NCBI GenBank assembly: GCA_015233245.1
Contig: JADFYB010000012.1
Span: 1-38,986, forward strand
Reading direction: 5' to 3'
Length of the DNA: 38,986 bases
Source: Nitrospirota bacterium
GTDB lineage: Bacteria > Nitrospirota > Thermodesulfovibrionia > Thermodesulfovibrionales > Magnetobacteriaceae
The notes under the pieces are model-generated. The model saw only the letters and a program-made list of their open reading frames with translations, searched no databases and had not been told where the DNA came from. Position numbers and translations under genes: made by a program. Positions 1 through 34,286 of this stretch are shown here, piece by piece (position 1 is the first letter of the stretch; each line of letters starts with the position of its first letter).

Positions 1-876
1 GTGGGTAAACCTCATGCTGCGATAAAACCTAAAAAACCCGAGGACTGGGGGTTTTCGACAAATGACTTATCTACTGACACCAGACAGGTAAGAAACGTTC
101 AACGCACAATAGAGGAGCTGCTCTTAACAAAACACCCGCTTATGGCCAAAGGCTATAAGTACATACTGCATACGCCAAAGTATCGCCACGGGGCACACAC
201 CACCCCCAGTGACACAGACCTTGTAGCCGTGTGGTTTGGTCCCTTTACGGATGTTTACAGGAGAGACAAGAGGGCTCCTTTTGTTACAGAGATATATGTG
301 GATATAAACCCGCTTGACGCTAAGGATTTAGGGTTAAATGACGGTGACTATGTCTACATAGATGCCGACCCAGAAGACCGCCCTTACAGAGGCGCCAAAA
401 AGACCGACCCCTACCACAAAGTGGCACGTCTTTTGTGCAGAGCCCGTTACTACCCCGGCACTCCGCGCGGCGTTACCAGAATGTGGCATAACGTCTATCC
501 GGCAACAATAGGCAGTGTAAAGGGACATGAAACACGTCCGGACGGCCTTGCCAAAAACCCGGAGACAAACTATCAGTCGATGAGCAGATATGGCAGCCAT
601 CAGAGCACAACCCGTGCATGGATCAGACCCACTCTTCTGACGGATTCACTTGTTCATAAGACGATGTTTGGGCAGACACTTGACAAGGGGTTTGAGCCGG
701 ATATCCACTGTGCTAACGGCGCTCCCCGTGAAGGATTTGTAACAATAACGAAGGCTGAGGACGGAGGGATAGGAGGCAAGGGCCCGTGGAAACCGTTTAA
801 GGATGGCATACGGCCTACTCAGGAAAATGAAACCATGAAAGCATATATAAACGGCAAGTTTATTAAGGCTAAATAA
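1..876 (+). CDS. Nxr/Nar-like molybdopterin oxidoreductase, catalytic alpha subunit (C-terminal part only)
   Basis: This is the last 291 residues of a large molybdenum-bis-MGD enzyme of the type II DMSO reductase family; the rest lies before the window. The visible part matches the C-terminal molybdopterin-dinucleotide-binding domain: a [22 protein letters not shown] segment (split here as [13 protein letters not shown], residues 94-106, then [17 protein letters not shown]) typical of that beta-barrel, then [18 protein letters not shown] and [13 protein letters not shown]. The Fe-S beta subunit follows after 17 bases, and a haem-b gamma subunit and a NarJ-like chaperone come next, which fixes the family. 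The likely role is periplasmic nitrate reduction or nitrite oxidation, but direction and substrate cannot be read from this fragment. The GTG at position 1 is in frame but is not believed to be the start. Any Tat signal and the Mo-ligand residue would be upstream. Confidence 0.88.
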
Positions 877-893
877 GAAGGAGACTCTGCCAC

Positions 894-2027
894 ATGCAAA
901 TGCGAAAGGTATATAACTGGCAATTAGGCAGAAATGCCTCGTACGTGTACCCTCAGAACAGGCCTAAAAAGCAGTGGGCTATGGTGTTTGACCTAAATAA
1001 GTGCATAGCGTGTCAGACCTGCTCTTTAGCCTGTAAGACCACCTGGACCTCAGGGCGCGGTCAGGAGTACATGTACTGGAACAACGTTGAGACAAAGCCC
1101 TACGGCGGCTACCCGACTGCATGGGATATGGGGATACTGTCAAAGCTTGGAATGCAGGATTGGGACGGTAATAAGTACGCTGGACGCACACTGTTTGAGG
1201 CTGCCGAAAAGGATGAGAAAATACTTCAGCATATAGCCGCCGAGGAGGACTGGGCTCATCCAAACATTGGAGAGGATGAGATAACCGGAATGGTTGGTAA
1301 GGGCGACTACATCACCATGCCGCACAAGATATGGATGTTTTATCTGCCCCGGACGTGTGCCCACTGTACGTATCCGGCGTGTTTGTCGGCATGTCCACGG
1401 AAGGCAATTTACAAGCGCCCCGAGGACGGCATAGTGTTGGTGGATCAGTCCAGATGCCGCGGTTACAGGGAATGCGTAAGGGCCTGCCCGTACAAAAAGC
1501 CAATGTTTAACGCTGAGACCAGAATCTCTGAAAAGTGCATCGGCTGCTACCCAAAAATTGAGCAGGGACTGATGACCCAGTGTATTACAAACTGTATCGG
1601 AAGAATACGATTAGGAGGGTTTGTAAACACGCCCGATAAGGCTGTTAAGGAAAATCCGATAGACTACCTTGTGCATATAAGAAAGCTGGCCCTTCCGCTC
1701 TATCCACAGTTTGGAACGGAGCCTAATTTGTTTTACATCCCTCCGATACACGTGCCAACCACGTACCTTAAACAGATGTTTGGCCCTCAGGCGGAAAACG
1801 CCGTTAAGACATATCTTGAGATAAGAAATGATATGACGCTTAAAGGACTTCTGGTACTATTTGGCAGTATGGAGCGGATAATAAGCTCCTTCAGGGTGGA
1901 TGGTAAAACGGCGGCAGGGTTTGATGAAAAGGGCAATGAAATAGTGAAGGTGCCTGTTACTGAGCCAACCTTTATAAGAGAGTTTTATGATGCAAAGCTA
2001 CAGGCCTACAGGCACAATACACCATAG
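894..2027 (+). CDS. Nxr/NarH-like iron-sulfur beta subunit
   Basis: This is the electron-transfer subunit (377 aa) that wires the molybdenum site to the haem-b subunit. Four ferredoxin-like Cys groups are visible: C37-x2-C40-x2-C43-x3-C47 (CIACQTCSLAC), C155/C158/C163/C167 (CAHCTYPACLSAC), C188-RGY-RE-C194-x3-C198, and C215/C218/C230/C234. In the third group Tyr191 stands where a fourth Cys would be. In NarH-type subunits a non-Cys residue here goes with a [3Fe-4S] cluster, so three [4Fe-4S] plus one [3Fe-4S] are predicted. The start ATG has a good AAGAAGGAG ribosome site about 10 bases upstream; a second ATG two codons later is possible. The gene lies 17 bases after the alpha gene, clearly in one operon. 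It is shorter than E. coli NarH (about 510 aa) and closer in size to periplasmic type II family beta subunits. Confidence 0.93.
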   Translation: MQMRKVYNWQLGRNASYVYPQNRPKKQWAMVFDLNKCIACQTCSLACKTTWTSGRGQEYMYWNNVETKPYGGYPTAWDMGILSKLGMQDWDGNKYAGRTLFEAAEKDEKILQHIAAEEDWAHPNIGEDEITGMVGKGDYITMPHKIWMFYLPRTCAHCTYPACLSACPRKAIYKRPEDGIVLVDQSRCRGYRECVRACPYKKPMFNAETRISEKCIGCYPKIEQGLMTQCITNCIGRIRLGGFVNTPDKAVKENPIDYLVHIRKLALPLYPQFGTEPNLFYIPPIHVPTTYLKQMFGPQAENAVKTYLEIRNDMTLKGLLVLFGSMERIISSFRVDGKTAAGFDEKGNEIVKVPVTEPTFIREFYDAKLQAYRHNTP

Positions 2028-2055
2028 GAGAGTGAGGGAGAGCATGGAGGATTCT

Positions 2056-2949
2056 ATGATAAAAAAATTAACACTATACATAGTGCTGACAATGATGGTT
2101 TTTGGTGTGGGTCAGGCTTTTGCTGAGGAGGTTAAAGGAACAGCGGAAAAACCCTTTGTTGAGATAACCTCCTACCATAAGGATACGGATGTAAGCAAAG
2201 TCGGTATAAACGATAACCTATGGAGCGGTGTGGCTTCTTACAGGCAGCCTCTTGAGAAACAGTATCTCGTGGTGCCAAAACCCGTTGAAGTCGGAGTCAA
2301 AGAACTTGTGGTTCAATCAATAAACGATGGCAAGTACATAGCGTTCAGGCTTGTGTGGAAAGATGCAACCGAAAACAGTAGCATCAAGGTAACGGGTTTT
2401 TCCGATGCGGCAGCCATTGAGTTTCCGGTAAAGACTGATCCACTCCCGCAGTACATTATGGGGCAGACGGATATGCCTGTTCATATACTGTACTGGAGGG
2501 CATGGAGATCAAAGGACACCAAGGACGGTTTCCAGACAATTGACACCGCTTATCCGAATCTTACCTCTGACATGTACACATTTGACTACAAGGTGAAGGG
2601 TAAGGGAACCGAAAAGACTCAGGAAGAGAAGGATATGTTTATTCCCGGAAAGGCTGCCGTAAATCCGCGGTCGGTTCCTCACAAACAGATTATAGAGGAG
2701 CTTAACGCTGAGGGCCCGGGCACTTTGAAAACGAAAAACGTTGAAAACACAACCGGCGAATCACACTGGAGTGACGGCACGTGGACACTTGTTATCAGAA
2801 GGCCCCTTAAGGTGGATGATGCTGTATCTGCACAGTTAGTGGTTGGAAAGAAAACCCCCATAGCTTTTGCTGTTTGGGAGGGGGAGAGAAAGGAATCAGC
2901 AGGACGTAAAGCCGTAAGTCCCTCGTGGGCAGAGGTCTTGGTTCAGTAA
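2056..2949 (+). CDS. Periplasmic haem-b gamma subunit of the molybdoenzyme (ethylbenzene-dehydrogenase-like)
   Basis: This is a secreted protein of about 297 aa matching the haem-binding gamma subunits (EB_dh domain) of type II DMSO reductase family enzymes, which pass electrons between the Fe-S subunit and periplasmic cytochrome c. The N-terminus MIKKLTLYIVLTMMVFGVGQ followed by AFA-EE is a clear Sec signal peptide. The C-terminal half contains SHWSDGTWTLVIRRPL, the strand pattern usual near the end of this domain. The frame is open from 1987, overlapping the beta gene, but the ATG at 2056 is preferred: GGAGG lies at 2046-2050, five bases upstream, and it starts directly at the signal peptide. 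An ATG at 2044 is the alternative. The axial haem ligands (usually Met and Lys) were not assigned. Confidence 0.85.
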   Translation: MIKKLTLYIVLTMMVFGVGQAFAEEVKGTAEKPFVEITSYHKDTDVSKVGINDNLWSGVASYRQPLEKQYLVVPKPVEVGVKELVVQSINDGKYIAFRLVWKDATENSSIKVTGFSDAAAIEFPVKTDPLPQYIMGQTDMPVHILYWRAWRSKDTKDGFQTIDTAYPNLTSDMYTFDYKVKGKGTEKTQEEKDMFIPGKAAVNPRSVPHKQIIEELNAEGPGTLKTKNVENTTGESHWSDGTWTLVIRRPLKVDDAVSAQLVVGKKTPIAFAVWEGERKESAGRKAVSPSWAEVLVQ

Positions 2950-3656
2950 TGGGTGCGGAGTCACTATACATATATAAGATTCTGTCTTTGGGTCTTACCT
3001 ACCCGGATAAGAGCAACTTTGATCTCATGGATGAAATCCTGCAAAGGGTGGCGGACATATTTGAAAGTGAGCTGGGTGACGCCGTCCTTGACTTCAGAGA
3101 TAAATTTAATGCGGCAAAAGGTGAGATAAACGAGCTTCAGTCGGAGTATCTTAGAACTTTTGATGTTGGCGCACTGGTTACACCGTATGAGACAGAGTAC
3201 CTGACGGAGAAAATATCCCGTAAGCCGCATGAGTTGGCAGACATTGCCGGTTTTTATGAGGCATTTGGCGTACATGTAAACGATCAGTTGGCTGGCAGAG
3301 AGGCGCTTGACCATATATCGGTGGAGTTTGAGTTTATGGCAATTTTGCTCATGAAGCAGGAGTATGCGCAGAGTAAGGGATTAGAGGAACAGCTGTTTAT
3401 AGTGAGAGAGGCTAAGGAAAATTTTTTTAAGGAACACATAAGCAGGTGGATATTTAAGTATCTAAGGCTTCTTGATAATGCCAGCGTGTGTGAGTATTAC
3501 GTGAGCGCTTTAAATCTGCTTAACCGGCTTATGGAGGCAGAGTGTATTGAGTATGGGCTGGATGCGGCAAGTTTAAAAACTGAAACAAACACCGCTTTCC
3601 ATAATGTAGTCGAGGAGGATTTTACGTGTGGGTGTATGGCTGACAGCAAGGAATAA
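2949..3656 (+). CDS. TorD/NarJ-like molybdoenzyme assembly chaperone
   Basis: This is a cytoplasmic, mostly helical protein of about 235 aa, probably the dedicated chaperone that holds the alpha subunit until the molybdenum cofactor is inserted and before export. The family call comes from its place in the operon (fourth gene after alpha, beta and gamma), the size, and TorD-like features such as the early YIYKILSLGLTYPD segment, LQSEYLRTFDVG near residue 65, and an acidic, all-helical composition. The ATG at 2949 overlaps the gamma stop as TAATG, implying translational coupling; an in-frame GTG at 2925 would extend further into the gamma gene and is less likely. The tail CGCMADSKE carries two close Cys residues, which is unusual but unexplained. 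Confidence 0.78.
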   Translation: MGAESLYIYKILSLGLTYPDKSNFDLMDEILQRVADIFESELGDAVLDFRDKFNAAKGEINELQSEYLRTFDVGALVTPYETEYLTEKISRKPHELADIAGFYEAFGVHVNDQLAGREALDHISVEFEFMAILLMKQEYAQSKGLEEQLFIVREAKENFFKEHISRWIFKYLRLLDNASVCEYYVSALNLLNRLMEAECIEYGLDAASLKTETNTAFHNVVEEDFTCGCMADSKE

Positions 3657-3692
3657 AAATATGAAAAACATTATGAATAAAGAGGGAGAAAA

Positions 3693-5099
3693 ATGCCAAG
3701 TAAATTCTATTTAATGTTAATGTTTTTATCCGGAGTTGTTTTCATGGTAGGAATAGGACTCTTTGCACATGAGTATGCGACACCTGAGTGGAGGAAGTAT
3801 CAGGTGGAGTATAAGGATTTTGTGAGAAGTAACGCTAAAGATGAGGCAACTGCCAGGTTAGCGGAGAGTATGGATATTGGGATTCAACAGATATACTTAA
3901 AGACCTTAGGCAGGATAGACAGGTGCACGAGCTGTCATGTGGGTGTGGAAAACCCGATGATGGCCAAAGCAGCGCTTCCTCTCAGACAGCACAGCGGTGA
4001 CTATCTGAAAAACCATCCGGCGGACCGTTTTGGTTGCACGGTTTGCCATTTTGGGCAGGGCAGAGCGACTAACAAGGTTGCTGCCCATGGTTTAGGCCAT
4101 GAAACCCACTGGGATAATCCCATATTGCCTGTGGAGTATGTCCAGAGCTCATGTGCCCAGTGCCATGATATGGAAATGTTGAAGGACAAGGGTGGAGAGA
4201 TGGTTGTAAAGGGTAAGAAACTCTTTCTTGAGCGGGGCTGTAAGGGCTGCCATAAGCTTGACAGTACGGGTGGCGTCATAGGTAAGGCTCTCGATGGAGT
4301 TGGCTCACAACCTATAGCATATTTCTCTATGAAGAACGTTCAGGGTGAAAAAACCGTGTACACGTGGATGAAGCAGCACTTTGATGACCCAAGAAACATT
4401 GTTCCGACAAGTGAAATGAAGACAGAGTTAACCGATCAGGAGGCTGAGTATATAACAAATTACGTGCTTTCTCTGAGGACACAGGAAATCCCTAAAAAGT
4501 ACCGGAGGATTAATACAACTCCGGAGGCGGAAAAAACCGGAGAGGACCTCTACAGAATGTACTGCGTGGCTTGTCATGCCGATGGTAAGACAAGCTCCTT
4601 CGATGAGGTGTTTAAGAGGACGGTTCCTGCGATTTCAAACCCTGCGTTTTTAAAAGCGGCTACAAATGATTATCTTAAAAAGGTAATAGAAGAGGGGCGC
4701 GCGGGGACTCAGATGACGGCATGGAAAGCATCGGCAGCAGGCCTCACAGAGGCTGAGATTAAGAGCATCGTAGAGTATGTGTCAAAGGACAGACCTGAGC
4801 AACAGGGTGAGCCGTTTGGATATCAGATTACTAATGGAGATTCAAAGGCAGGAGAGGACCTTTTCAGAGTGCGGTGTGTGGATTGTCATGGTAAGAACGG
4901 CCAGGGTGGTATTGGACTGAATCTCAGAAATCCTGTAGTGCAAAAAGAGGCTTCCCCTGAGTTTCTGGCTACAACCATTCGGGACGGCCGAGAGGGCACC
5001 CATATGGCATCTTTTGGTAAAGGCGGTTCCGGTTTGAGCGATAAAAACATTGCTGATATCGTTGCCTATATTAAGACATTTTCAGGAGTAAAAAAATAA
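3693..5099 (+). CDS. Membrane-anchored six-haem cytochrome c
   Basis: This 468-aa c-type cytochrome is probably the periplasmic electron partner of the upstream molybdoenzyme. Six CxxCH haem sites are visible: CTSCH (C78), CTVCH (C115), CAQCH (C154), CKGCH (C183), CVACH (C291) and CVDCH (C395). An N-terminal hydrophobic segment (about residues 5-25) lacks an obvious cleavage site and should anchor it in the inner membrane. The last three haems each sit in a class I-like domain of about 85 residues with a candidate distal Met (SEMKTEL, TQMTAW, THMASF). The first three are packed into an N-terminal module with extra His residues (HGLGHETHW) that could serve as distal ligands. The RBS is GAGGGAG ahead of the ATG; the gene is 36 bases after the chaperone gene. 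A hairpin after the stop probably ends the operon. Confidence 0.9.
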   Translation: MPSKFYLMLMFLSGVVFMVGIGLFAHEYATPEWRKYQVEYKDFVRSNAKDEATARLAESMDIGIQQIYLKTLGRIDRCTSCHVGVENPMMAKAALPLRQHSGDYLKNHPADRFGCTVCHFGQGRATNKVAAHGLGHETHWDNPILPVEYVQSSCAQCHDMEMLKDKGGEMVVKGKKLFLERGCKGCHKLDSTGGVIGKALDGVGSQPIAYFSMKNVQGEKTVYTWMKQHFDDPRNIVPTSEMKTELTDQEAEYITNYVLSLRTQEIPKKYRRINTTPEAEKTGEDLYRMYCVACHADGKTSSFDEVFKRTVPAISNPAFLKAATNDYLKKVIEEGRAGTQMTAWKASAAGLTEAEIKSIVEYVSKDRPEQQGEPFGYQITNGDSKAGEDLFRVRCVDCHGKNGQGGIGLNLRNPVVQKEASPEFLATTIRDGREGTHMASFGKGGSGLSDKNIADIVAYIKTFSGVKK

Positions 5100-17041: not shown

Positions 17042-19279
17042 TTATGTTGCAACCGGTAGTTGTATGATAAATTGTGCACCATCTTCAATGTTTAAAACAG
17101 ATATTTTCCCGTGCATCTTTTCTTCTATGATCGTTTTTGACATATAAAGGCCAACCCCTGTGCCCTCAGATCCTTTTGTTGAAAAATAAGAGTCAAATAT
17201 TTCCCCTATTACATCATCAGGAATACCACCTCCATTGTCTCTTATTGAAACTATAATTTCAGAGTTGTCCTCGGTATTGCCGACAGAGATTTCTATTTTC
17301 CCTTGCAGTTGAGTATCGGTCTTCTTTTTTGAAACAATTGCATCTTTAGCGTTATTCAAAATGTTTAGCAGCACCTGTTTGAACTCACTGGGATACCCTT
17401 CTGTAAGCAGTGCAGCGCCCTGTGTGGTTTTAATAAAAATATCTATATGGCTTTTGTTAAATATTTGCAAAAACATCGAGAGTAATTCTTCTATGGCAGT
17501 GTTTACATAAAAATGGACTTTCTTTTTTGCCGGTATGAAAAAGTTTCTGAAATCATCTATTGTTTTTGACATAAATTCAATCTGTTGTAACGAGGCGCTG
17601 ACTGATTCCTCGATGTATCTTGCATCCAGTTCACCAAAGGTAAAAGCATCCTTCACATCATTAACATTTAAAGCCAGAGCATTCAGGGGCTGCCTCCACT
17701 GATGCGCTATTAGTCCAATCATCTCTCCCATGCTTGCCATCTTAGACTGCTGAATAAGTAATTGCTCCTTTTGTTTGTTTTTTTGCTCCTCAAGTTTTTG
17801 CATGGTTATATCGCGGGCTGTTATTACAACACCTTTCATCCCTCCGCCCTCTGCATATTCCGGAAAGAACCTTGCGTGAAAATAGATTGTTCCGCCGGGT
17901 GTTTCAAAGTCGTAATAAGCCTCTTGTGTTTGACAGGTATTAAAAACATTTTGCAGCAGTTCTTTCCACGATAAAGCAATGTCTTTCGACAGAAATATTT
18001 TTGAATCTATCGGTTCACCTATAAAATAATCGAGGTCAACAGAGCTGTCAAGCCTGCTGCAAACGGGGTTCATATAAAGACAAATGTAATTGTTGTCATA
18101 TCGAATGATTAAGTCCTGGCTGTTTTCAACCAGTGCGCGATATTGTTCCGTGCTTGACGTCATTTTAGTGGCATATGACGAAAGGGATTCCGCCATTTTA
18201 TTTAAGGCAATGGCAAGCGAGGTAAATTCATTTTTCCCTTTTAGCCGTAATCTGTTTGTAAGGTTGCCGGTAGATATCTCCTCAGCAAAAGACTTGCACT
18301 CCTTCACATCCCTCGATATTACAGTGGATATAATGTACGCAATGATTAACGTGCCTAAAAGAATAAGAAAACCGCAACCCCACCTTATTAAGGATATTGT
18401 ATCTTCGCTGTCCTCTCTTTTTTGCCTTGAGGCAACGACGTTATTGAAAGCCTCCTCATTAAGAGAAGCCAGTAGAGGTTCTATAGTGCGTATGGATTGA
18501 ACGTAATTGTTATTAATAGTCCTGATCTCGTCGGATGTTTGACAATATAGCTGGAAAAAACCGGCGTATGAATCAGCCAGAGTAATGAGCCTGGATTTAA
18601 TGTCAGATGGTAATTGTGCTAATGCAATATTTCTCTTAAATGTATCGCTGTCCTCACGATGTTTTGTAACGTAGAGGTCCCTGTTTTGTATGATGTAATT
18701 TTTTTCATCTCTGCGAAGCATCAGTAAGTCTGATTTAAGCTGAGAGTTTTTTTGCATATCTAAAACTGACTCAATCTCCCGTGAGCTACTCTGCAGTGCA
18801 CCATAAGTCCCCGAATTAGAGAAACCAAGTGCCATGTATTTATCTGTTAAATTAAAGATAGTAGTCTGATACTTATCCAATTCCATGTCTATTTTATAGG
18901 TAATTTCTTTGATATTCTGATTGCTTGTTAAAGACCGGATATGGCCCATAATATTCTTAATCTCAGAGACATAGGTAAGTATTGGCGTTATATATCTTGA
19001 TTTAGCCTCGTTATAGCCGAAATCCTTGTACGTAAGAATAAAGTTTTCCATATTAATTCGGGCTTTAAGCATTGTGGAATTGGCATCCATGCACAGGTAA
19101 GAAATCCTGTCCAGATTATCTTCTTTTGCAAACATCGCATCGAGTGTGACATCCTCTTTCCATTCGACAAAAGTTCCCAGAACTATAAAAAGTATAGAAG
19201 CCAACGTGAAGCTTATATACAGAACAGTTCTTATGTTTAAACGGCCAATGCAGCTGTTTGCGCTGTCCAATATTTTCAT
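17042..19279 (-). CDS. Membrane histidine kinase with HBM-like sensor, HAMP and PAS
   Basis: This 745-aa sensor kinase has TM1 (about 18-36), a periplasmic helical region of about 255 residues (40-295), TM2 (298-322), HAMP (322-372), PAS (378-495), a HisKA-like dimerisation domain with the phospho-acceptor in IAHQWRQPLNAL (His526), and an ATPase domain with the N box LLNILNNAKDAI (about 637-648), DNGGG (681-685) and GTGVGLYMSK. The segment LMLRRDEKNYIIQNRDLY (186-203) resembles the RRxEKDFLLR signature of helical bimodular (HBM) sensor domains. The start has GGAG eight bases upstream. It lies 42 bases after the gene for a PstS-like binding protein and probably reads its ligand state, as in TorT/TorS. 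No response regulator gene is next to it. Confidence 0.93.
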   Translation of the reverse strand: MKILDSANSCIGRLNIRTVLYISFTLASILFIVLGTFVEWKEDVTLDAMFAKEDNLDRISYLCMDANSTMLKARINMENFILTYKDFGYNEAKSRYITPILTYVSEIKNIMGHIRSLTSNQNIKEITYKIDMELDKYQTTIFNLTDKYMALGFSNSGTYGALQSSSREIESVLDMQKNSQLKSDLLMLRRDEKNYIIQNRDLYVTKHREDSDTFKRNIALAQLPSDIKSRLITLADSYAGFFQLYCQTSDEIRTINNNYVQSIRTIEPLLASLNEEAFNNVVASRQKREDSEDTISLIRWGCGFLILLGTLIIAYIISTVISRDVKECKSFAEEISTGNLTNRLRLKGKNEFTSLAIALNKMAESLSSYATKMTSSTEQYRALVENSQDLIIRYDNNYICLYMNPVCSRLDSSVDLDYFIGEPIDSKIFLSKDIALSWKELLQNVFNTCQTQEAYYDFETPGGTIYFHARFFPEYAEGGGMKGVVITARDITMQKLEEQKNKQKEQLLIQQSKMASMGEMIGLIAHQWRQPLNALALNVNDVKDAFTFGELDARYIEESVSASLQQIEFMSKTIDDFRNFFIPAKKKVHFYVNTAIEELLSMFLQIFNKSHIDIFIKTTQGAALLTEGYPSEFKQVLLNILNNAKDAIVSKKKTDTQLQGKIEISVGNTEDNSEIIVSIRDNGGGIPDDVIGEIFDSYFSTKGSEGTGVGLYMSKTIIEEKMHGKISVLNIEDGAQFIIQLPVAT

Positions 19280-19321
19280 CTTAGAATCTCCATATTGGCA
19301 TTTTTAGATGCTCTGATGATA

Positions 19322-20239
19322 TCACTCCTCGTAGGGAACGAAGTCATATTGTACGATTATATCATTGACCGCAGAGGAGAGACAGTAGTTGATGAATTCT
19401 TTCTCCAGGCCGGATGGAAGTGTTTTCGTAACAAGAGAGAGAGCACGGGAAATTGGATAATTCATGGTAATGATATTCCTGTTTGTGGGCATAATGTGGT
19501 CAACAGGTATAATCTTAACAGCGTCTCCTGCTTGTACTTTACGCTGCGCTTCTCCCGATGAAACATATGAAATTGCATTTGGATTAGTTGTCACCGCATT
19601 TATTATTACTGAATTATCACCATCGATAAACTTGCCGGTTAACATGTCGTTACTAAATTTGAAATAATCGTAGAAGAGCTCGGTTGAGGCCCCTCTCCTT
19701 GTTTTCAACACCACAGATATGTTGGCATCAATGCCTCCGGCTTGTTTCCAGTTGGTAATCTTACCGGTATAAATGTCAAATATCTGCTTATTGCTGAGAG
19801 TAACAACGGGGTTATTTTTATTTATGATGATGCTGACACCGTCCCTGGCGATAGTAAAACCGAAAAGGTCCTTCTCCTTATCGGTAAGAGCACGGGATAC
19901 CATCCCGATTTTGGATTTTCCCTCCCTGACGTCTTTAATGCCCCGGGCTGAACCGCCACATTGTACGTCAAGGCTAACTTTAGGATACAACGAATGAAAT
20001 TTGTTACCTATAGCCTTTATCAGTGGACACATAGTGCTGGAACCTGTGATCATTAGGTTCCCTTCTATCTTAAGTTTATCGTTGCCATTTACATCCAGTG
20101 CGTGGCTTACTCCGGAACACATAAAAAAACTGCCAAAAAACATGCAGACTATAAGACACGCTATAGATGATAAAAACACTCTTTGTAAGCTAAAAGAATC
20201 GAATAAGGCAGAAATTTTCGACAAAAAAAGATATAACAT
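19322..20239 (-). CDS. PstS-like periplasmic substrate-binding protein
   Basis: This exported phosphate-type binding protein is about 305 aa. An N-terminal hydrophobic segment (LSSIACLIVCMFFGSFFM, around residues 23-40) forms a long signal peptide or anchor. The mature part has the PstS-like ligand loops ITGSSTMCPLIKAIG, CGGSARGIKDVREGKSKIGM and the IYTGKITNWKQAGG motif found in phosphate-binding family members. The oxyanion ligand is probably phosphate, not proven. The ATG at 20239 has a GGGGG ribosome site about eight bases upstream; a GTG at 20257 precedes that site and is rejected. No pstC, pstA, pstB or phoU is nearby. The next gene in the operon is a histidine kinase, so a sensing role is more likely than transport. 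Confidence 0.85.
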   Translation of the reverse strand: MLYLFLSKISALFDSFSLQRVFLSSIACLIVCMFFGSFFMCSGVSHALDVNGNDKLKIEGNLMITGSSTMCPLIKAIGNKFHSLYPKVSLDVQCGGSARGIKDVREGKSKIGMVSRALTDKEKDLFGFTIARDGVSIIINKNNPVVTLSNKQIFDIYTGKITNWKQAGGIDANISVVLKTRRGASTELFYDYFKFSNDMLTGKFIDGDNSVIINAVTTNPNAISYVSSGEAQRKVQAGDAVKIIPVDHIMPTNRNIITMNYPISRALSLVTKTLPSGLEKEFINYCLSSAVNDIIVQYDFVPYEE

Positions 20240-20325
20240 CTGTTGTCCCCCTTTCACTTCACAACGTTATTAATTTTACCTATTATTCTTATCTTTAGTA
20301 AAGCAAACAGGTTTAATTTTAAAAT

Positions 20326-32768: not shown

Positions 32769-34286
32769 TCAATAGACAGTATAAGTGAAATACTTATACT
32801 CGTAAGTATTCCAACTTGTATCATAAATTATTTCAAAATAATAATAGGTACCTGTTTCAGCGCCATATGGAACATACGAATATAGATTGCTTGCAGACAA
32901 TGTTTGTCCTGATGATATAGTTATACCGCTATTTAGAACAAGCCATGTCCCACTTGGTGTATAAACATAAGCGTACATGTAATAGGTAGAACTTGAACTA
33001 TTAATAACGGTTGAGGAATACGGCCCTAAATTACCACCACGAGAGACTGCTGTTGCTGTCGGTGCTGTTAGTGTATGCGTGAGTGATGAGGAAGATGATA
33101 CGCCGGTGTAGATATAAGTTGGATAACCACCAGCAACCAGCTTAGTACCATCTGATGATGATGCGATAGGTGTCCAATTTCTACTACCAGCACTAGTTTG
33201 CGCAGTCCATGTAGCGCCTGAATCTGTTGATGTATAAATATAATCTGAAGAATTACCACCACCAGCTGTAGCAGCAATTTTTGTTCCATCTGATGATGAA
33301 GCTATTGACCACCAATATCTGTTGCCACCACTAGTTTGCTCTGTCCATGTAGCGCCTGAATCTGTTGACAAATAAATGTATCCACTAGTAGCAGCAGCAG
33401 CGAGTTTTGTTCCATCAGAAGATGATGCTATTGACCACCAATATCTACTGCCGGCACTCGTTCGCTCTGTCCATGTAGCACCTGAATCTGTTGAGGTATA
33501 AATATAGCCACCATAAAGGACAGCAGTGAGTTTTGTCCCATCTGAGGAAGATGCTATTCCGTACCAAACTCTGCTACCAGCACTTGTTCGCTCTGTCCAC
33601 GTAGTACCTGAATCTGTTGAAGTATAAATATAACCTCCATAATTTGTAGCAGCGATTTTTGCTCCATCTGATGATAACGCCATTAAGCGCCAATATCTGC
33701 TGCCGGCACTTGTTCGCTCTGTCCACGTAGTACCTGAATCTGTTGAGGTATAAATGTATCCACCAGAAACTCCAGCTGCAAGTTTTGTCCCATCTGATGA
33801 TGACACAATTGACGTCCAATTTCTGCTGCCAGCACTTGTTCGCTCTGTCCACGTAGTACCTGAATCTGTTGAGGTATAAATGTATCCACTAGGATTAGTA
33901 GTAGCAGCAGCGATTTTTGTTCCATCTGATGATGAAGCTATTGCCCACCAATATCTGCTACCAGCACTCGTCCTCTCAGTCCATGTGTAACCGGATGAAG
34001 TCGTTCCTGATGCTGTAGTTGTCGTAGTGGATGCAGTTGTTGTGGTGCCTGCTGTCGTGGTAGTTGTGGCTCTCGTTGTGGTAGTTGTTGACGCTGTTGT
34101 GGTTGAGGTGGTTGGTGCTGTTGTGGTTGAAGCTGTTGTGGTTGAAGCTGTTGTGGTTGTATCGATACCGATACCACCGATATCAGCAAATGAATAACTA
34201 CTAAAAACAAATAAAAAAACGCTGCATATTAATAATATTCTTAACTTCTTCATAAACACACACTTTTTAATCGAACCATAAAACAC
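32769..34286 (-). CDS. Secreted Asp-box (BNR-like) seven-repeat protein with Thr-rich stalk
   Basis: This 505-aa exported protein has a signal peptide (MKKLRILLICSVFLFVFSSY, then SFA), a Thr/Ala/Ser-only linker (about residues 38-95), seven repeats of about 40-46 residues, and a C-terminal beta-rich domain of about 100 residues. Each repeat reads like WTERTSAGSRxWxxIASSSD followed by GTKxAA, and YIYTSTDSGTTW between repeats is a perfect Asp box (S-x-D-x-G-x-T-W), seen six times. A seven-bladed beta-propeller is predicted. Catalytic sialidase residues (Arg triad, Tyr, Glu) are not evident, so binding or adhesion is likelier than hydrolysis. A GTG start at 34286 has GGGAGGTG ten bases upstream; ATG 34253 is the alternative and would begin at the signal peptide. 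Confidence 0.82.
   Translation of the reverse strand: MFYGSIKKCVFMKKLRILLICSVFLFVFSSYSFADIGGIGIDTTTTASTTTASTTTAPTTSTTTASTTTTTRATTTTTAGTTTTASTTTTTASGTTSSGYTWTERTSAGSRYWWAIASSSDGTKIAAATTNPSGYIYTSTDSGTTWTERTSAGSRNWTSIVSSSDGTKLAAGVSGGYIYTSTDSGTTWTERTSAGSRYWRLMALSSDGAKIAATNYGGYIYTSTDSGTTWTERTSAGSRVWYGIASSSDGTKLTAVLYGGYIYTSTDSGATWTERTSAGSRYWWSIASSSDGTKLAAAATSGYIYLSTDSGATWTEQTSGGNRYWWSIASSSDGTKIAATAGGGNSSDYIYTSTDSGATWTAQTSAGSRNWTPIASSSDGTKLVAGGYPTYIYTGVSSSSSLTHTLTAPTATAVSRGGNLGPYSSTVINSSSSTYYMYAYVYTPSGTWLVLNSGITISSGQTLSASNLYSYVPYGAETGTYYYFEIIYDTSWNTYEYKYFTYTVY
33085..33985 (-). repeat. Tandem coding repeats, about 120-135 bp each
   Basis: Seven in-frame DNA repeats encode the Asp-box units. The nucleotide conservation is high, especially around TCTGTCCAYGTAGYACCTGA (plus strand), which means recent expansion or gene conversion. 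The adjoining stretch 33993-34165 is a low-complexity GTTGTGGTTG-type run encoding the Thr-rich stalk. Confidence 0.8.

Follow-up and report, generated by a model that had tools for sequence, protein, structure and literature searches.

The principle of a periplasmic binding protein that reports to a transmembrane receptor is known from several systems. The closest precedent for the gene pair described here is PstS-CtpL of Pseudomonas aeruginosa, in which PstS, a Pst subunit with a double role, binds to and is read by the HBM receptor CtpL, a chemoreceptor with a helical bimodular periplasmic domain (PMC4926252, PMC5126104). In TorT-TorS and XylFII-LytS a periplasmic binding protein acts on a sensor kinase, TorS and LytS being the readers (PMC6321045); TorT and LuxP are reported to differ in structure and phylogeny from the oxyanion-type binding proteins, to which AioX belongs (PMC5908839). 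AioX (with the kinase AioS), ArxX and ArrX are Class II oxyanion-type proteins that turned from transport to sensing, are linked to kinases and gained a pocket cysteine; in AioX this is Cys106, which binds arsenite and is missing in the transport relative PhnD, its closest structural homologue, and the protein is encoded with a response regulator and arsenite oxidase (PMC5908839). In some HBM receptors the ligand is a small molecule bound directly, organic acids in the case of McpS and McpK (PMC5126104), and pst genes are associated with arsenic islands (PMC3834237).

The 38,986-base stretch of Nitrospirota DNA analysed here (the window) is one entire contig (G000:C266) of a 3.47-Mb draft genome, and encodes a PstS-like periplasmic binding protein, PS, directly before a sensor histidine kinase. 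As in PstS-CtpL, a PstS-family protein is matched with a receptor whose periplasmic domain is helical and bimodular, but PS is a dedicated protein separate from Pst, its gene stands next to that of its sensor, and the canonical loop 4 is missing. The TorS sensor fold also fits our sensor model (Z 15.7); in contrast to TorT-TorS, however, PS is a PstS-family protein and some orthologous sensors drive GGDEF outputs rather than kinases. With AioX, PS shares the Class II oxyanion type, the apparent change from transport to sensing, the link to a kinase and the gain of a pocket cysteine, but it appears to lie in the PstS branch, scoring as PBP_like_2/PstS with no PhnD-type family among its Pfam matches. 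The closest sequence relatives of PS, at 40-50% identity, belong to arsR-pstSCAB operons and the pstSCAB genes of arsenic islands (PMC3834237) but, unlike the pair, these operons serve transport, carry genes for a permease and an ATPase, and have no receptor. The PS-sensor pairing, its exchangeable outputs and the altered pocket appear new.

Results

A binding protein gene next to a sensor kinase gene

The original prediction, made from the window alone, placed a PstS-like gene 42 bases upstream of a kinase gene, assigned the kinase a 255-residue periplasmic region and saw no adjacent pst or response regulator gene. The gap is exactly 42 bases, about 260 periplasmic residues separate TM1 from TM2, and inspection of the neighbours revealed neither a pst nor a response regulator gene adjoining the pair (Table 1). 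The PS reading frame extends from a GTG (19322-20257, minus strand), from which residues are numbered here, but AAAGGGGG shortly before the ATG at 20239, the start in the original prediction, makes that ATG the better start. The kinase runs in the order TM1, periplasmic part, TM2, HAMP, PAS_4, weak HisKA and HATPase_c, with Pfam matches to HAMP, PAS_4 and HATPase_c; its phospho-acceptor region, AHQWRQPL, is a weak HisKA match. A glycosyltransferase gene flanks the pair on one side; on the other, the sequence reads as genes for a predicted exonuclease of 226 aa and for an S41 peptidase.

Table 1. Coordinates in the window of the gene pair and of the features discussed
Feature	Position	Strand	Remarks
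PstS-like periplasmic binding protein (PS)	19322..20239	-	ATG start; in-frame GTG upstream at 20257; signal peptide without lipobox
Transmembrane sensor histidine kinase, 745 aa	17042..19279	-	HBM/TorS-type periplasmic domain, HAMP, PAS, HisKA-like, HATPase_c
Intergenic spacer, 42 bases	19280..19321	-	GGAG precedes the kinase ATG
Periplasmic six-helix bimodular domain, residues ~39-298	18386..19165	-	Fold of McpS and TorS
Helix 1-2 turn YKDFGYNEAKSRYIT, residues 84-98	18986..19030	-	Among the most conserved stretches
Cys77 (GTG numbering), pocket loop 1, TGSSTMCPL	20027..20029	-	Cys in every paired member sequenced there
Cys100 (GTG numbering), pocket loop 2, DVQCGGS	19958..19960	-	Cys in all 5 independent paired members
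Pocket loop 4 ISVVLKTRRGASTELFYDYFK	19658..19720	-	Canonical PstS: R-x-x-G-S-G-T; varies within the paired group

Two other regions of the window can be mentioned. From what their translations resemble, positions 1-5099 hold a DMSO-reductase-family type II enzyme operon (a NarG/NxrA-like end, an iron-sulfur subunit, a haem-b subunit, a TorD-like chaperone and a multi-haem cytochrome c), and positions 32769-34286 encode a secreted protein of 505 aa that combines a threonine-rich linker with repeats of a WTERTSAGSRxW block and looks like a BNR/sialidase-type beta-propeller.

Conservation of the pair and variety of its outputs

Searching 199 relatives with the sensor half gave four strong matches besides the window, from the sister species (93%) and from three genomes in other families of the order (31-33%), and in all four a PstS-like gene lies directly upstream of the sensor gene, the contig beginning inside it in two. 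For one of these (L016/L032), the missing upstream part of the gene is supplied by another contig, L030. The latter, from an Omnitrophota bin, was rejected as a separate lineage, being 99.9% identical to L032 over 1307 bases, and is probably a binning error; L030 and L032 are filed under Omnitrophota and Nitrospirae, respectively, and have similar groundwater isolate names. Sensor relatives scoring at 75-85 bits, mostly MCPs, had no PstS-like neighbour at those loci checked.

When PS alone was used to search 176 genomes of the order, orthologues were found in exactly the five sensor-carrying genomes (417-562 bits, with the next best match at 175). The chance of the same five of 176 being drawn is 1/C(176,5) = 7.5e-10, phylogeny ignored, and the pairing is more than chance. 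There are only five independent paired members, including one that shares 93% identity with the window, and they amount to four distinct proteins. Their genes are 42 or 45 bases apart, overlap by 11 bases (L015 and L016) or leave a 3-base gap (L017), and their surroundings differ from genome to genome, the sister species excepted, so that the adjacency recurs in four unrelated contexts. The output is a histidine kinase in three of the five (window, sister species and G131), GGDEF-EAL in G138 and PAS-PAS-GGDEF in G171: the conserved unit is the binding protein plus the sensor half, and outputs are exchangeable. The search of relatives proposed as a check on the original prediction has turned up a pairing that is conserved and exclusive, in the same 5 of 176 genomes, and family searches gave no pst locus using PS as its binding subunit.

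Predicted fold of the sensor domain

An AlphaFold2 model of the sensor from 12 aligned sensors (pLDDT 89, pTM 0.72) has six helices, with helix 1 and helix 6 long. In Foldseek against the PDB, the best match was the McpS ligand-binding domain (E 1.7e-4), with TorS (E 0.046) ranked below McpS and intervening unrelated helical chains. In VIA-align, McpS-LBD came top of all chains (Z 17.7, rmsd 2.3, 215/238 residues), and LytS-N from its complex with XylFII (Z 16.3, 122 residues) and TorS (3i9y; Z 15.7, 213/229 residues) likewise exceeded the helical-bundle background of about 13-14 that the program quotes; the McpS and TorS alignments span both modules of the sensor. The model thus agrees with the HBM/TorS-type fold first proposed for the kinase. 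The Pfam HBM model, PF16591, did not match the window sensor domain and reached 18.6 bits, below its 29.8-bit cut-off, with the full protein of the L032/L016 orthologue; among the aligned sensors, a domain scan hit one sequence, at E 6.1e-5, and a PDB sequence search with the sensor gave no match. Given that the Pfam model misses the window and stays below cut-off in one orthologue, an HBM fold is supported, membership of PF16591 is not.

The kinase motif quoted in the original prediction, LMLRRDEKNYIIQNRDLY, is present in the sensor, and the first module carries a decayed second copy, ARINMENFILTY, which fits a domain of two modules. Conservation is highest in the DLLxxRRxEK helix and where helix 1 turns into helix 2 (GYNEAKSRYI); this turn, an insertion missing from most looser relatives, is a candidate docking surface for PS.

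Relatives, pocket and ligand of the binding protein

By sequence, PS belongs to the PstS family, with 121 bits against Pfam PBP_like_2 (above cut-off), a profile match to PstS 4gd5 at E 4.7e-44, and 168 bits against TIGR02136 (below the 206.6 cut-off). Besides the paired proteins, scanning 84,980 genomes brought out a set that stands sharply apart, at 40-50% identity to PS, with hosts that include Nostoc, Calothrix, Methylotenera, Pseudobdellovibrionaceae and Moraxellaceae. Downstream of the inspected members come pstC- and pstA-like genes, and a pstB-like gene where read further; in many, an ArsR-like regulator lies just upstream (PF01022 matched in 3/3 tested), and others adjoin an ArsM-like methyltransferase or an LMWPc/arsC-like gene. 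In the tree, the five paired proteins group at 100/99 support and join this arsenic-operon set, also at 100/99, with receptor-adjacent PstS-like proteins of the same order just outside both. By identity and tree, the nearest relatives of PS are binding proteins encoded in pstSCAB operons, of which most adjoin arsR, arsM or arsC-like genes. Co-option of PS from an arsenic transporter was considered and dropped, with the receptor-adjacent L110, L112, L114 and L116 branching outside both groups. The pstSCAB-type operons at L034-L050, from cyanobacteria, Betaproteobacteria, Gammaproteobacteria and Bdellovibrionota, have arsR, arsM or LMWPc neighbours and an invariant NKAEGRSTLELF loop in the binding protein; they may serve phosphate-selective uptake under arsenic, or some other function.

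Loop 4 of canonical PstS (R-x-x-G-S-G-T) coordinates phosphate. PS keeps most of pocket loops 1-3 and of the GDN loop, but this conserved phosphate-binding loop 4 is absent from all distinct paired members, where it reads KTRRGAS, REKSKPV, PQKGYSS or RERQKNV, as against NKAEGRSTLELF throughout the arsenic-operon set. No other PstS-like protein in the comparison has the loop 1 or the loop 2 cysteine, the arsenic-operon set having Ala at the Cys77 position and Ser, Thr or Ala at that of Cys100. Since loop 4 differs in each distinct paired protein, the case for phosphate loses its main sequence support, and a canonically bound phosphate is unlikely as the PS ligand; the suggestion of phosphate as ligand is not supported, this part of the PstS pocket having decayed in the paired group.

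Two views of the stimulus have to be weighed. It is possible, if doubtful, that PS binds phosphate like any PstS and reports it to the kinase, in a kinase version of PstS-CtpL (PMC4926252): such a role would suit its family and its retained loops, but it has to accommodate a non-canonical loop 4 in four distinct paired members and two cysteines gained beside the pocket loops. Equally tentative is a sensor of arsenic, another metalloid or a thiol, the PstS-family counterpart of AioX-AioS, whose cysteines would either bind the ligand or make up a redox-sensitive disulfide. The two cysteines are invariant solely in the paired group, the sister group lies in pstSCAB operons with many arsR, arsM and LMWPc/arsC-like neighbours, and AioX, with its arsenite-binding cysteine, sets a precedent (PMC5908839); however, reading the sequence beside the five pairs, whose neighbours were family-scanned in part, revealed no arsenic gene, and the loop cysteines may instead form a structural disulfide. 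They could bind a metalloid, as Cys106 of AioX does, or form a disulfide. Our leading guess, still unproven, is an oxyanion or metalloid, which may be related to arsenic and which the two loop cysteines may hold or gate.

A probable two-piece receptor

Because PS always lies directly before a sensor of matching architecture, the two probably form one receptor, and we consider it likely that they encode a single two-piece transmembrane device in which PS docks on the HBM/TorS-type domain. Soluble PS would bind a small, probably anionic, periplasmic ligand and dock on the six-helix domain of the kinase; once docked or changed by ligand, the complex would shift the helices that cross the membrane and lead into HAMP and PAS, and this shift would alter kinase activity. 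We infer the physical contact, the direction of signalling and the ligand. An AlphaFold2 model of PS and the kinase joined in a single chain, built by reading through the two in-frame stops between the genes (TGA and TAA, taken as Ser), has confident domains but a pTM of 0.52, too low to fix how the two are placed relative to each other; the short tether and the absence of the dimer may have hindered it. Two observations count against the reading: there are only five independent paired members, and the sensor relatives at 75-85 bits have no PstS-like neighbour at the loci checked.

With some HBM receptors binding small ligands directly, the sensor could have a ligand of its own, sharing operon and stimulus with PS without touching it. 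McpS and McpK, whose HBM domains bind organic acids (PMC5126104), are examples of this and the fused-chain model does not demonstrate contact, but we regard this arrangement as distinctly unlikely: the sensor co-occurs exclusively with a transporter-free binding protein, its conservation peaks at one turn and the RRxEK region, and PstS-like genes beside receptors recur in the order.

That PS is an ordinary Pst subunit, apart from its permease and beside a kinase by accident, would suit the pstC-pstA genes that lie without an adjacent pstS on another contig (C162) of the genome, but is very improbable and largely refuted by the PS-sensor adjacency kept in four contexts, by permease proteins closer to canonical Pst types than to the arsenic-operon type, and by a different PstS (L023, contig C255) with orthologues at 77-94% identity in the other three members of the genus searched. 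All four genus members have a PstC of one kind, and two of them, G001 (a single contig) and G002, are without PS. As these two species keep PstC and a different PstS in the absence of PS, the latter is not the Pst subunit and is not needed by the Pst transporter, so that, with no permease gene adjacent either, the view that the pair is not a transport system has held. On C162, an EAL-domain-like protein, as read from its sequence, follows pstC-pstA on the same strand (L029:5543-8785).

Discussion

PS and its sensor are thus best read as a probable two-piece receptor. A more specific scheme, which we think unlikely as a whole, is a dedicated PstS-family sensing branch, sister to the binding proteins of arsenic-operon transporters and independent of AioX, in which two gained pocket cysteines detect a metalloid or redox state and a portable HBM sensor serves varied Nitrospirota outputs: kinases, diguanylate cyclases and GGDEF-EAL proteins.

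In the order, the next-best 20 PstS-like loci are followed directly by a gene for a two-TM receptor-like protein in 10 cases and by one for a pstC-like permease in 8; a family scan of five of the ten receptor-like proteins found an MCP signalling domain in four and a kinase in one. Binding-protein-to-receptor pairs look common in this group, with the window pair as one distinct type. The receptor-adjacent loci come from ten other genomes (L110, L112, L114-L117, L119, L125, L126 and L129), and four of the ten PstS-like proteins keep a GRST/GSST-type loop 4. The window's own genome has a second binding-protein/kinase pair on contig C63 (L024:3567-8877), where the gene for a 354-aa PBP_like_2 protein, 83-97% conserved in the three other genus members searched, overlaps the start of that for a 1426-aa multi-PAS histidine kinase.

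With half of the next-best loci adjoining receptor-like genes, our data suggest that many Nitrospirota 'PstS' annotations are sensor parts. PS offers a clear example, open to testing, of a binding protein of the transport type that is given over to signalling, and its nearest relatives, which are still in transport operons, can serve as natural controls. One binding protein and sensor wired to three kinds of output would, moreover, help to show how an HBM domain reads a docked protein.
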